From: Synergistaceae bacterium
GTDB lineage: Bacteria > Synergistota > Synergistia > Synergistales > Aminobacteriaceae
DNA length: 57,455 bases
Assembly: GCA_031267575.1 (NCBI GenBank)
Contig: JAIRYN010000009.1
Coordinates: 1 to 57,455 of the forward strand
Direction: 5' to 3'
The notes below the pieces were generated by a model. It ran no database searches, was not told where the DNA came from, and saw nothing but the letters and a program-made list of their open reading frames with translations. Shown piece by piece: positions 7,680-48,437 of the stretch. How positions within the stretch are numbered: position 1 is the stretch's first letter; every line of letters begins with the position of its first letter. The position numbers and the translations under genes are program-made.

Positions 7680-9455
7680 TTAGTGGACATGAAACTGTTC
7701 TACCGATCGAGTAGTATTATTTTTAACTACACCTTCGGCTATGGCTTTCCGTTTGGCGCCGTATTGGTTCTGGATTATCACCTCCACCTTGAAGAACCAA
7801 GAACCGTCAACACGTTGTTCCTCGTATCGCAAACCGCTACCCCAGTGACATTTAAATCCATAAGATTTATGTTGGCCGTATTTTTCAAAGGCTTTTCTCG
7901 CGTCTCTTTTTGGGAGTTCGCCAGAATGATCACGGGCAACGACCTTGGCGGCGTTCCGGTCATCTTGTATGAGCGCGGGAGGAACAGAAGAGCATAGCGC
8001 AAAATAGCGCTCGTTCTCTAAGTTGCTAATATCAGGGTAAGACGGCCCTTTACCCGTCAAGTTTGAAACTTTATACCTGCTACCGTCATAACTTACGTTA
8101 AGCGAGGCATCGACAACGCTACCGACTTCGTAAATTTTGAGTTTCAAGTGGTCAACGTGCCAGGTGTTTTTACTCTTCGCAGTCCACGTTCCCTCCGATT
8201 CAACATTCATAAAAAATCCGGCTACATCCGCGTAACTATGAAATTTTGAAATATCATAGTCGTTTCCATCACTTGTCAAAACATCTGTAGCGTAGTAATT
8301 TGTAAAGGCTACTACTGCCGCGCGTAACGCGTATTTCACAGGGAAATTTACCGAGACCGCATGGATATCAGGCGCAGTAAGATTAGGAGTGTTGGACGCG
8401 GTAACACTTAAAGAATTTAACTGTGGCGCGGTTTCTTTCGCTCTGTCAGTCGTCTTTGCGGGGTATGTATGGTATGTAACCACAATCGGAACATTTGGAG
8501 TATATCTCGAACCTGCTCTAAACGTAGTCTTGCCGCCAACTTTTACCGATTCTACTTCTCCGTCCTTGGTGAGCCAACCCATGATCAGGTCGTCCAACAC
8601 CGCTGTTTGTACATTCGAAAACCCGGCTGCTTGCAATTCGGCTATGACTGTTGAATAGTCAGAACCAATGTAATTACTCGAACCTTTCGGTATTTTTAGT
8701 CTGTTGTCGGGTTCGCGCCTACTACTGGAAGTACTGAAAGCTGTCAGCGTTCCGAGAAGGAGAAGTATGCTTATTGTAAATAAGATTATACGTTTCCTAT
8801 CTATTCCTCCTCTAACTATGGATTTCTGACTAGAATTAGGGCGGAAGTCATTTTTCTTAGGCAAGGCAGACTTACGTCTACTAAATTCCTCTGCGGTAAT
8901 GCGACCATTTCTATAATCGTCAAAGATTTGTTGAAACGAGTCTTCACTATGAGCACCAGCTTGGGTTACTCCGTTCGACGAAAATGTTTGTGCTTCGCCT
9001 TCATCGGAAAGCCATAACCGGCGGTTTTCGGCATTTTCTTTGGGTGTCTTCATATGAGGTGTCTTCATATGAGGTGTCTCTATATTGGGTGTCTTCATAT
9101 GAGGCGTCTCTATATTGGGCGCTCCCATATCGGGTGTCTTTATATTAGGCGCTCCCATAGAGGTACCTTTTCTTGAATCATTAAACTTAGTGAGCCACTG
9201 GTCAAGTTCCCTAGTTTTCGAGTTTGCGAGATAGGATAATTGAGTCAAGACTCCCAAGGAAAAATCGCTTAATGAAGCAAAGCGGGAATTCAGGCTATTC
9301 AATACTTCATTAGATACTTCATTAGGTTGATGTTGTGAGTTGTTATACGCCACAGAAGGCTTTGCCGAAACCAATATCACAGCTCCGCATGAAGGACATG
9401 GTTCTGAAGGATTAACAATCAAATAATTACACTTAGGGCATGTCACAACAGGCAT
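7680..9455 (-). CDS. Zinc-ribbon, SHOCT and PASTA-like membrane protein
   Basis: The 591-residue protein has recognisable parts in order. A zinc ribbon lies at residues 6-23 (CPKC...CPSC). Eight pentapeptide repeats of the form (M/I)xxPx occupy residues 100-139. A SHOCT-like oligomerisation motif is at about 170-199 (FDDYRNGRITAEEFSRRKSALP). One transmembrane helix is at about 223-240. A PASTA-like repeat is at about 255-330 (STVIAELQAAGFSNVQ... IVVTYHTYP). The large C-terminal region (about 370-591) is unfamiliar. The predicted topology puts the ribbon and repeats in the cytoplasm and the PASTA-like and C-terminal parts outside, which suggests a cell-envelope sensor or scaffold. This is inference. 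It has its own promoter at 9528-9556 and no operon partners. Confidence 0.75.
   Translation of the reverse strand: MPVVTCPKCNYLIVNPSEPCPSCGAVILVSAKPSVAYNNSQHQPNEVSNEVLNSLNSRFASLSDFSLGVLTQLSYLANSKTRELDQWLTKFNDSRKGTSMGAPNIKTPDMGAPNIETPHMKTPNIETPHMKTPHMKTPKENAENRRLWLSDEGEAQTFSSNGVTQAGAHSEDSFQQIFDDYRNGRITAEEFSRRKSALPKKNDFRPNSSQKSIVRGGIDRKRIILFTISILLLLGTLTAFSTSSSRREPDNRLKIPKGSSNYIGSDYSTVIAELQAAGFSNVQTAVLDDLIMGWLTKDGEVESVKVGGKTTFRAGSRYTPNVPIVVTYHTYPAKTTDRAKETAPQLNSLSVTASNTPNLTAPDIHAVSVNFPVKYALRAAVVAFTNYYATDVLTSDGNDYDISKFHSYADVAGFFMNVESEGTWTAKSKNTWHVDHLKLKIYEVGSVVDASLNVSYDGSRYKVSNLTGKGPSYPDISNLENERYFALCSSVPPALIQDDRNAAKVVARDHSGELPKRDARKAFEKYGQHKSYGFKCHWGSGLRYEEQRVDGSWFFKVEVIIQNQYGAKRKAIAEGVVKNNTTRSVEQFHVH
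9039..9158 (-). repeat. 15-bp coding tandem repeat (8 units)
   Basis: Eight consecutive 15-bp units encode pentapeptides such as MGAPN, IKTPD, IETPH and MKTPH in the zinc-ribbon protein. The last two units differ by a single residue (His/Lys), showing recent duplication. The product is a proline-rich flexible linker. Confidence 0.85.
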
Positions 9456-9614: not shown

Positions 9615-9643
9615 TTGACTTTCTTCAAAAGGTGTTTTAATAT
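9615..9643 (+). promoter_or_regulatory. Promoter of the SSS symporter leader
   Basis: TTGACT (9615-9620), 17 bases and TAATAT (9638-9643) form a near-consensus promoter on the plus strand. Transcription from about 9650 gives a leader of about 375 nt before the symporter, containing a short reading frame and a terminator. A 17-base segment containing ACTAGTACTATTGAA is repeated just downstream. Confidence 0.65.
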
Positions 9644-9743
9644 GGCAAGTTGTTTAAGAGGCTGAAGACTAGTACTATTGAATACTAGTACTATTGAAGA
9701 TTAGCAGGTTAAAGATGAGTACGCTGAAAGGATTGGATCGGCT

Positions 9744-9845
9744 ATGGTGGTGTCAAAGACTCTAGTGGCGTTCTTTTACTTTTATTACTGGACAACATAC
9801 GGGGATCCCAGTCGGAGGAGGATCGGCGCAACGTCCGTTTGTTGA
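9744..9845 (+). CDS. Putative aromatic-rich leader peptide (attenuator)
   Basis: The 33-codon frame starts at ATG 9744 behind a purine-rich site in the motif GTACGCTGAAAGGAT, the same motif that precedes cysS, pgsW and pduE in this window. Codons 10-16 read FFYFYYW, and a further Tyr sits at codon 19. Seven consecutive aromatic codons in so short a peptide are what classical attenuation leaders such as pheL and trpL show for their regulatory amino acid. It ends at TGA 9843-9845, 25 bases before a terminator hairpin, and the symporter starts 179 bases further on. I infer translation-dependent control by aromatic aminoacyl-tRNA. It could still be a chance frame. Confidence 0.55.
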   Translation: MVVSKTLVAFFYFYYWTTYGDPSRRRIGATSVC

Positions 9846-9870
9846 GCCGAATCAAATCGAAAGACTGAGG

Positions 9871-9908
9871 GTTTCCTCGCAAAATCACGCGAAGGAAACT
9901 CTTTTTTT
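9871..9908 (+). terminator. Leader terminator upstream of symporter
   Basis: GTTTCCTCGC pairs with GCGAAGGAAAC (one bulged base) around an 8-base loop and is followed by CTTTTTTT. It is an intrinsic terminator located between the leader peptide and the symporter, hence a candidate attenuator. If it is not an attenuator, it ends a short RNA of about 255 nt. Confidence 0.7.
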
Positions 9909-10024
9909 ATGTTCACGAGAAAGCGCGAGAAAATACGAGAAAGGAGGAGCTCTTTTAGAAGGAAGCGTTTTACCCTCGAAACTCGAAGGGTGGGTTTCGT
10001 ATTTCATTTTCGGGAGGAAAAAAA

Positions 10025-11482
10025 ATGCAATCGAATATTCCATTGGTGATTTTGATCGTCTACGTGATCGTGTTGACCCTGTTGTCCTGGAAAGCCACCC
10101 AGATCCAAAAACACGGCTCCGGCGGAAAAACGCTGAATTACCTGCTGGCGGGCCAAAGGCTTCCCACAGTGTTGGTTGCCGTCATGCTCACGGGTCTTGC
10201 CGTGGGCGGCGCTTCCACCGTGGGCGTGGCGGAACAAGCCTATACAAAAGGCATCTCCGCAGGTTGGTATAACGGAGCTTGGGGCACGGGCGGGATCGTC
10301 GTGGGATTGATCTTGGCCTCGAAGTATCGCGGAATGAGTCAGCGCACGGTCCCAGAGATGATGGGAACAGCCTTCGGCAATGGGGCCCGCTTGATCGGCG
10401 TCATCGCACAGCTCCTCATCATGATGACGATCACGTCTCTCCAGTATGTGGCGGGCGGGGCAATTTTGGCCTCCATGCTGCCGGAGGTCTTCACGCTCAC
10501 CACAGGAATGCTCGCCTCCGCCGTGGTCTTCATCGGTATCACCTTATGCGGCGGCTACTGGGCCAGCGGCTTGACCAATGTCGTCAACGTCATCTGCATC
10601 TACATCGGAATCATCGCCGCACTTTTTTCTGGTTTTAAAAATTTAGGGGGCTTTGAATCCGTCGCGCAGGCCCTCCCTGAGGGCACCTGGTTCGAGCCCA
10701 TCAGCGGAATCGGTACGGCGATCTTCGCGGGATGGATGGCCGTCATGATCACCATGGCCTGCACAACCCAGGCGGTGGTGCAGATCTCTCTGGCCGCAAA
10801 AGATGAAAAAACAGCGCGTAATGGCTTCATCATTGGTGGTATTTTGACCTTGCCGGCGGGTTTTCTCTGCGCTCTTTTCGGAATCATGGCCGCCGCGAAG
10901 TTCCCAGATCTTGCCAACCCCGCCCTCGCGCTGCCCACGATAGCCAAAAACACCATTTCGCCCCTGATTGGCGGCGTTTTCCTCGCAGGGCTTTGGGCAG
11001 CCGACGTTTCCACTGCCGTGGGGCTTTTGATGGGGTGTTCCTCGCTGCTCATCCAGGATATTTGGAAGCGGGCGGTGCCCAAAGAGTTCTCTCCCAATAC
11101 CGAACTCATGATCTCGCGTCTGATGGTTTTCCTGGTTAGTCTCTGCTCATTTTATCTGGCGTTGACCGCGGTGGGGATCTTGCAGACCATCACTTCGGCT
11201 TTGGCCATCACCACTTCTTTCACGCTCCTGATTTTGACCAATATCTATGCGCCGCGCCTGTGTAAAAAATCTGCTGGGTTCTGGACAATCTTGGTCTCCC
11301 TGATCGTGTGGGGTCTTTGGACCTATGTTCCCTCCACCCGCGTCGGCCCTCATCTGATCTATGCAGAATGGATCGTTTGTCTGGTCGTCTTCGGGATCAC
11401 CTACTTCCTCGACAGCCGCCCGGCCGTGAGCCTTATGCCTTCGCGGTCCCAAGCCCCGAAGAGCGCCGCCTCCGCAGATTGA
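10025..11482 (+). CDS. Sodium/solute symporter (SSS family)
   Basis: The 485-residue membrane protein has about 13 hydrophobic segments. Family features are the early loop KTLNYLLAGQRLP, the unwound first helix region LAVGGASTVGVAEQAYTKGISAGWYNGAWGTG, and YRGMSQRTVPEMMG. These match SSS transporters, which couple Na+ entry to uptake of amino acids, sugars, pantothenate or carboxylates. Substrate cannot be fixed from the sequence. The leader with an aromatic-rich peptide suggests an aromatic amino acid or a product of its metabolism. The start has a strong GGGAGG Shine-Dalgarno. It is monocistronic and ends in a hairpin shared with the convergent nikO. Confidence 0.9.
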   Translation: MQSNIPLVILIVYVIVLTLLSWKATQIQKHGSGGKTLNYLLAGQRLPTVLVAVMLTGLAVGGASTVGVAEQAYTKGISAGWYNGAWGTGGIVVGLILASKYRGMSQRTVPEMMGTAFGNGARLIGVIAQLLIMMTITSLQYVAGGAILASMLPEVFTLTTGMLASAVVFIGITLCGGYWASGLTNVVNVICIYIGIIAALFSGFKNLGGFESVAQALPEGTWFEPISGIGTAIFAGWMAVMITMACTTQAVVQISLAAKDEKTARNGFIIGGILTLPAGFLCALFGIMAAAKFPDLANPALALPTIAKNTISPLIGGVFLAGLWAADVSTAVGLLMGCSSLLIQDIWKRAVPKEFSPNTELMISRLMVFLVSLCSFYLALTAVGILQTITSALAITTSFTLLILTNIYAPRLCKKSAGFWTILVSLIVWGLWTYVPSTRVGPHLIYAEWIVCLVVFGITYFLDSRPAVSLMPSRSQAPKSAASAD

Positions 11483-31377: not shown

Positions 31378-32146
31378 GGTATTAAAGAAACAGCTGCCAT
31401 TTCTAACCATCAGGTTTTTAGCAATATAAACAAAGCGTCCAGAGTTAAGAAATTAAAACGCAGGCTTAAACGAGAGTAACGTAAATTTTTTTGAAAAATT
31501 AATTATAGAAAGAAGGTGAAACCTGCTACTGTAAAATTTGCGAACCTAGACAAACAGCGTATCAAAGTCCAGAAAGCCTACTACAGACTTGATTGTGTAA
31601 GAAAAGACTATATCAACAAAATAGTCTGTGCGCTGGTTATGACCAAGCCAGCTTATATCACAATATTCTTGGAATGATGAAAAATAAGCATCTCCCAAAG
31701 GCTATAGCGGAACAGAATTTTTACTGTTTTCAAACAAAGCTGTCTGAGAAATGCAAGAGGCACAACATAGAGCTTCGAGCTGCTAACCAATTTTTTCCCT
31801 TATCTTTTTTCCCTTATCTTTTTTCCCTCATCGAAGATGTGCTCGAATTGTGGGGCTATAAAGTGGGGTTTAAAGAAGGATTTGAAGCAAGGATTTGAAG
31901 CTCGGCAATCGTGTCTATATCTGCCAAGAATGCAGGTTAAAAATAGACCGTGATTTGAACGCAGCTATGAACCTAAAGCATTGTAAACACTATAAAGTAG
32001 TGTAAAGCTATGTACCGTGGGCTACACGGGAATTTAAGCCTTTGGACTTCCGAACAAACTTGAGTAGCTTTGGCGAAAGAGGGAAGAATAAAGAAGGAAA
32101 AATCTGGACGATTACACTTTTGTGTAGGTTTTCAGTAGTAGGTTTT
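31378..32146 (+). mobile_element. tnpB: Decayed TnpB element (IS605/IS607 type) between pgsB and pgsC
   Basis: TnpB sequence can be followed across several frames and stops: GIKETAAISNHQVFSN, KLKRRLKRE, KINYRKKVKPATVKFANLDKQ, RIKVQKAYYRLDCVRKDYINK, KIVCALVMTKPAYI, EQNFYCFQTKL, then the zinc-finger region (SSKMCSNCGAIK, CQECxLKIDRDLNAAMNLK). The first part, with the catalytic Asp of RuvC-I, lies in GI-KE. It ends with an IS-like tail containing TTACACTTTTGTGTAGG, which recurs at 37688-37864. It is clearly dead. Confidence 0.8.
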
Positions 32147-48337: not shown

Positions 48338-48348
48338 CTTCGTCCGAT

Positions 48349-48437
48349 CCGATCCTTTCAGCGTACTAATACCTACTTATAACGAGTAGATATATTTCGC
48401 ATAGTATTTTTTTGACTATAAAGCCAAAGAAAAAGCT
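48349..48437 (-). promoter_or_regulatory. Repeated 5' leader element, copy C (between pduD and pduE)
   Basis: Inverted relative to copies A and B in the window but in the same orientation relative to its gene. It begins 4 bp after the pduD stop and ends near the pduE start: AGCTTTTTCTTTGGC, TTTATAGTC, the GTAGG-type stem and GTACGCTGAAAGGATCGG. The sequence is very close to copy B (28755-28842). Confidence 0.85.

Follow-up and report, generated by a model that had tools for sequence, protein, structure and literature searches.

A predicted phenylalanine- and tyrosine-responsive leader-peptide attenuator upstream of a sodium:solute symporter gene in Synergistota

A gene for a sodium:solute symporter (SSS) within a 57,455 nt stretch of DNA from a Synergistaceae bacterium (contig JAIRYN010000009.1), which will be referred to as the window, is preceded by a short open reading frame (ORF) with a run of aromatic codons and by an intrinsic terminator. 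We are highly confident that this leader is a ribosome-mediated transcription attenuator answering to the charging of tRNA-Phe and tRNA-Tyr and, in approximately half of the leaders detected, of tRNA-Trp. Judged from its sequence, the attenuator is conserved and probably functional and has an unusual target. The anatomy of the leader, its conservation, its mutually exclusive pairings and the position of its switch were all determined by computation as described below.

Results

Organization of the symporter locus

All elements of the locus are located on the forward strand. A consensus scan identified a sigma-70-type promoter at positions 9615–9643, consisting of a −35 hexamer TTGACT (9615–9620), a spacer of 17 nt and a −10 hexamer TAATAT (9638–9643). 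The original prediction had called this promoter near-consensus. The spacer length was confirmed, but the score is 9 out of 12, and with four comparable matches in the window versus 3.2 expected in shuffled sequences such matches are not rare. Significance derived from the consensus scan alone was consequently rejected. Similar hexamers (TTGACT or TTGACA) with similar spacing are nevertheless present at the same place 5′ of the leaders of related strains, demonstrating that position and spacing of the promoter are kept. Between promoter and leader ORF, in the region 9668–9698, the sequence ACTAGTACTATTGAA occurs twice with a spacing of 16 nt. Upstream of the locus the window encodes on the reverse strand (7680–9455) a protein of 591 aa that contains a YPYG domain and a series of repeats resembling HMKTPNIETP.

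The leader peptide ORF (MVVSKTLVAFFYFYYWTTYGDPSRRRIGATSVC) comprises 33 codons from the ATG at 9744 to the TGA ending at 9845, and contains the predicted ribosome stall site, the regulatory codons F-F-Y-F-Y-Y-W, at 9771–9791, exactly as originally described. The ribosome-site motif claimed for it is present as well, but with AAAGGA (9727–9732) positioned 11 nt 5′ of the ATG it is a mediocre candidate here; in close relatives GGAGGTGA is found only a few nucleotides 5′ of the start. Two further observations concern this region. A 16-codon ORF with tandem Trp codons (MSTLKGLDRLWWCQRL, 9715–9765) overlaps the leader ORF in another frame and is probably a chance ORF. In addition, the region around the leader start (9715–9741) shares 25 of 27 bases with positions 48344–48370 of the reverse strand, located just 5′ of the gene that follows an apparent diol dehydratase large-subunit gene.

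Directly 3′ of the aromatic run and still within the ORF lies the 5′ arm of an antiterminator (9801–9819), which is kept in close relatives. Its core GGGGATCCCAGTC (9801–9813) was computed to pair within 9862–9876, thereby enclosing an inner hairpin (9821–9853) that spans the leader stop codon. The 3′ arm of the antiterminator (9857–9876) overlaps the 5′ half of the intrinsic terminator (9867–9908; −19.2 kcal/mol), which is formed by GAGGGTTTCCTCGC (9867–9880) and GCGAAGGAAACTC (9889–9901) followed by seven T residues (9902–9908). The predicted order of leader ORF, terminator and symporter was thus verified, with the correction that the terminator starts 21 nt and not 25 nt 3′ of the leader stop. 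The regulated gene itself (10025–11482, ATG at 10025) is preceded by the ribosome binding site GGAGGA (10013–10018) and encodes a protein of 485 aa, which matches PF00474 with 91.7 bits (gathering score 22.8) and thus belongs to the SSS family. The NCBIfam superfamily model TIGR00813 scored 119.6, below its cut-off of 184, and TIGR02121 gave a weak match.

Scanning the window against Rfam revealed no known riboswitch or attenuator family at the leader and no match to the T-box family RF00230 anywhere in the window; the scan otherwise yielded only one tRNA and a RAGATH-18 RNA (32039–32099, forward strand; 53.4 bits, gathering score 44.9).

Recurrence of the leader in related transporter loci

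To evaluate chance, sequences were scanned for ORFs that contain six or more aromatic residues in a stretch of eight and that precede a hairpin with a T-run. No such combination was found in 1.15 Mb of shuffled window sequence, and with the threshold lowered to at least five the leader was the sole match in the 57-kb window. In 510 kb of homologous transporter loci, the matches of the same scan were mostly ORFs directly upstream of the transporter gene. The arrangement of leader, terminator and symporter is therefore real and well beyond chance.

Homologues of the symporter were gathered by whole-genome search and from named genomes. The order of peptide, terminator and symporter was found at 20 loci with 21 leader peptides, in several families of Synergistota as well as in Desulfovibrio, Adiutrix and "Deltaproteobacterium Smac51". 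Examples from Synergistota are YFYFYYWFTTCGDPSR, SFYFYYYFTGGGEPG, SFYFYFWFTDGDSPE, RFYFYYVVAGS, AFRYYWYWTE and RLFWYGYYFRC, and those from Smac51, Adiutrix and Desulfovibrio include RYYYFSFWFRTAR, NYYYFWFSNAR, IFFYYSWFSSAR and QFSFSFFFRTR. Phe is present in the aromatic runs of all 21 peptides, Tyr in all but one and Trp in about half. What is kept is the aromatic content, whereas lineages differ in the arrangement of F, Y and W, in the length of the run and in the flanking residues. Likewise, the ORF, its aromatic run and the distance to the terminator are kept across phyla, but the RNA sequence is not, and it is this conservation from which we infer that the leader ORF is translated. Of the 21 peptides, 20 have a terminator behind them, with stems starting 17–33 nt 3′ of the stop codon; one of these leaders (L056) combines a strong hairpin with only a weak T-run. 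In Candidatus Adiutrix (L043, 342–700) two complete aromatic attenuators are arranged in tandem 5′ of the symporter gene.

Mapped onto a tree comprising 81 transporters, presence of the leader requires 5 changes, compared to 19.6 in shuffles, so the leader is clustered on the tree and yet was gained or lost several times. One locus counted here as leader-bearing (L008) shows the terminator only, as its contig ends. In more distant homologues the whole element is absent and not just parts of it, indicating that leader control is not universal in this transporter family. A comparison of leaders in related genomes had been proposed as a check, and the aromatic runs, terminators and alternative pairings indeed recur at the 20 loci; homologous leaders lacking peptide or terminator had been named as counter-evidence, and within the leader-bearing clades the outcome was favourable to attenuation.

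Position of the antiterminator switch

Each leader carries an RNA arm directly after the aromatic run, within the ORF, that is complementary to the 5′ half of the terminator. Between lineages these arms are unrelated in sequence, each being complementary to its own terminator. For the folding analyses, a ribosome was set on each codon in turn, the RNA was masked as far as 12 nt downstream of the A-site codon, a footprint fixed beforehand, and the remaining RNA was folded up to the 5′ arm of the terminator. The antiterminator formed in silico when the aromatic codons were occupied by the ribosome, but not when the ribosome was at the stop codon, where the terminator was left free. For 12 of the 20 leaders, the last codon permitting the antiterminator was identical to the final aromatic one. 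A boundary calculated without reference to the run agreed to within one codon in 8 of 13 representatives, compared to 1.8 expected (p ~1e-4). A poor fit of the geometry was obtained for L066 (offset +11) and, by a stricter rule, for L027 (offset +5). In 15 of 20 leaders the fold of the stalled state was in the lowest 1% of synonymous recodings; this applies to the folding energy only, as the probability of the terminator arm pairing upstream was not unusual compared to recoded sequences.

Among nine close leaders, whose sequences are similar, the antiterminator is 94% paired with no pair changed on both sides; its arm is under a triple constraint, being part of the coding sequence, the antiterminator and the terminator. 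The terminator stem is 92% paired in the relatives, with two pairs changed on both sides. The antiterminator also forms in silico without a ribosome. A classical scheme of three hairpins, one of them a separate protector, was considered and rejected, as folding without a ribosome revealed no stable structure competing for the antiterminator arm, and for this reason the switch is described as two-state.

Phe and Tyr T-boxes and further aromatic leaders

Two homologues of the transporter in Bacillota (54% and 47% identity) are located directly behind T-boxes matching RF00230. The first (L075) is preceded by two tandem T-boxes with the specifiers UUC (Phe) and UAC (Tyr), the second (L081) by one T-box with the specifier UUC (Phe). 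Specifiers were read by the rule GAA-N-codon, which was validated with further T-boxes from these genomes and returned CTC for leuA, ATC for ileS, GGC for glyQ, GTA for valS and TTT for pheS, though some others were unreadable by this simple rule. These T-boxes provide independent support for sensing of Phe and Tyr, and they also support the originally predicted aromatic amino acid or related substrate. The genome containing the tandem T-boxes has a further Phe-specifier (UUC) T-box before a phenylacetate-CoA-ligase-like gene (L187).

In the genome of the window itself, the operon aroB-aroA-aroC-aroK-DAHP synthase-pheA is preceded by a leader containing ..YSYVAWFYF.. with the same geometry, and the folding simulation placed its switch point at the last aromatic codon. 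On contig C40, a gene for a GmrSD-type restriction endonuclease (L132, 4765–7112) lies between this leader with its terminator and aroB, and due to this location the defence gene may be under Phe/Tyr/Trp attenuation. The trp genes of the same genome are preceded by a leader ending in ..SWWWWL, for which the simple simulation gave no clear switch. A search of this genome for further copies using the pattern TWY x5 revealed no other terminator-linked leader among the 30 of 117 places examined.

Genomic context and candidate cargo of the symporter

Regarding the physiological role of the symporter, chorismate synthase is absent from 5 of 11 leader-bearing genomes compared to 1 of 8 genomes without leader (genomes at least 90% complete; Fisher p 0.18), and three of those five also lack prephenate dehydratase. 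The link between auxotrophy and the leader is suggestive only; genomes lacking both enzymes would need to import aromatic amino acids or close precursors. This agrees with the reading that the attenuator controls a symporter importing Phe and Tyr themselves, any neighbouring Ldh_2 and LarA genes being incidental, a plausible reading to which we give slightly less than an even chance. Consistent with it, neither Ldh_2 nor LarA is encoded directly beside the gene in the lineage of the window and in the two T-box Bacillota, and amino acids, proline for example, are among the substrates of SSS transporters, a point to which the weak TIGR02121 match relates. The orthologues of Ldh_2 and LarA in the genome of the window lie elsewhere, with no convincing aromatic leader in the flanks examined.

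Other loci argue against it. A gene for Ldh_2 directly follows the symporter in G033, G037, G041, G046, G047, G049, G050, G055, G057, G058 and G063, with or without leader, and a LarA-type racemase gene follows in Smac51 and Adiutrix (L042, L043) and in the G055/G047 pair, both pointing to a 2-hydroxyacid. LarA homologues are known to racemise 3-phenyllactate and 4-hydroxyphenyllactate, and LarAH10 is the family of the 3-phenyllactate racemase (PMC7583248, PMC11770544). The LarA protein of G055 has LarAH10 (NF052525) as its best family with 449.6 bits, below the cut-off of 540, while those of L042 and L043 are above the cut-off of lactate racemase NF033504. Since Ldh_2 often and LarA sometimes follow the symporter, its cargo may be aryl-2-hydroxyacids rather than amino acids, and an aryllactate would make sense of an operon induced by Phe/Tyr shortage that also encodes a 2-hydroxyacid dehydrogenase and a racemase. 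We tentatively suggest that anaerobes could import D- and L-aryllactates (phenyllactate, 4-hydroxyphenyllactate) via the SSS symporter, racemise them by LarA and oxidise them by Ldh_2 to arylpyruvates, which transamination would convert to Phe and Tyr. This starvation-induced route would have recruited leader peptides (Synergistota, Desulfovibrio, Adiutrix) and T-boxes (Bacillota) independently. Overall, import of aryllactate and direct import of Phe/Tyr appear about equally likely.

Discussion

The proposed attenuation mechanism would operate as follows. Transcription would start near 9650, with immediate translation of the leader peptide. Given an ample supply of aromatic aminoacyl-tRNAs, the ribosome is predicted to pass FFYFYYW and to cover or unwind the arm 9801–9819, so that the terminator (9867–9908) would form and transcription would stop. 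When they are scarce, the ribosome would stall on the aromatic codons with its front edge just short of the arm; the free arm would then pair with 9857–9876 and destroy the terminator, allowing RNA polymerase to read into the symporter gene. The physiological logic of such a stall and change in read-through would presumably be to import either an aromatic amino acid or its precursor, for which the Ldh_2 and LarA genes 3′ of the symporter in several relatives suggest an aryl-2-hydroxyacid. Two findings support the original proposal of ribosome-mediated attenuation: many relatives share the peptide, the terminator and the alternative pairing, and the codon at which the antiterminator disappears agrees with the end of the aromatic run.

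Besides stalling by uncharged tRNA, a nascent aromatic peptide sensing free ligand in a TnaC-like arrest was considered, by which the symporter would be induced by abundance and not by scarcity of an aromatic compound. TnaC precedes the tryptophan permease operon, so that an inducible leader before a transporter has a precedent, and the RNA switch would work alike whatever stops the ribosome. However, only the composition of the leaders is conserved, unlike in arrest peptides, with the order of F, Y and W, run length and flanks varying. The T-boxes of the homologues sense uncharged tRNA-Phe and tRNA-Tyr and thus scarcity, and the genome of the window carries the aromatic and WWWW leaders before its aro and trp biosynthesis genes, making this reading very unlikely (for TnaC stalling see PMC8429421). 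The least probable explanation, which we regard as extremely unlikely, is a chance ORF in a riboswitch-like or otherwise structured leader with translation playing no part: the leader is indeed long and structured and its antiterminator folds without a ribosome, but no Rfam family matched it, ORF, run and terminator distance are kept across phyla despite divergence of the RNA sequence, the location of the switch tracks the aromatic codons, and the shuffled sequence contained no such ORF with terminator.

The kind of mechanism proposed here is known; its novelty appears to lie in the target, in the lineage and in the convergence with T-boxes. In the open-access literature searched, we encountered neither an SSS symporter controlled by leader-peptide attenuation nor an aromatic attenuator from Synergistota. 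The regulation alone yields a clue to the substrate of an uncharacterised transporter family, and it points to a testable route of aromatic amino acid salvage in gut anaerobes. Moreover, leader-peptide attenuation and T-boxes, two unrelated RNA mechanisms, represent a rare side-by-side case of convergence on the same tRNAs and the same transporter family.

Among known systems, tnaC-tnaAB of Escherichia coli likewise has a leader peptide before an operon including an aromatic amino acid permease. There, free tryptophan induces via nascent-chain arrest and Rho, in contrast to the intrinsic terminator and the conservation of composition only in the leaders described here. Phe/Tyr T-box riboswitches (RF00230) respond to the same tRNAs and precede homologues of the same transporter, but sense uncharged tRNA directly and without translation. 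In Bacillus subtilis, BmrB-BmrCD (PMC4191407) is also a case of transporter genes under ribosome-mediated transcriptional attenuation by a leader peptide; it differs in responding to ribosome-targeting antibiotics and growth phase, in controlling a multidrug ABC transporter and in having no codon run for a cargo amino acid. The attenuators of amino acid operons (enterobacterial trp, pheA, his and ilv; trp of Actinobacteria, PMC1262725) share with the symporter leader the codon-run leader ORF, the intrinsic terminator, the mutually exclusive antiterminator and the decision by ribosome position. It differs from them in its target, which is an SSS symporter instead of a gene for biosynthesis or for a tRNA synthetase. 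Moreover, a single run combines codons for Phe and Tyr, sometimes also for Trp, the arm of the antiterminator is located in the ORF directly after this run, and folding without a ribosome results in the antiterminator instead of the terminator.
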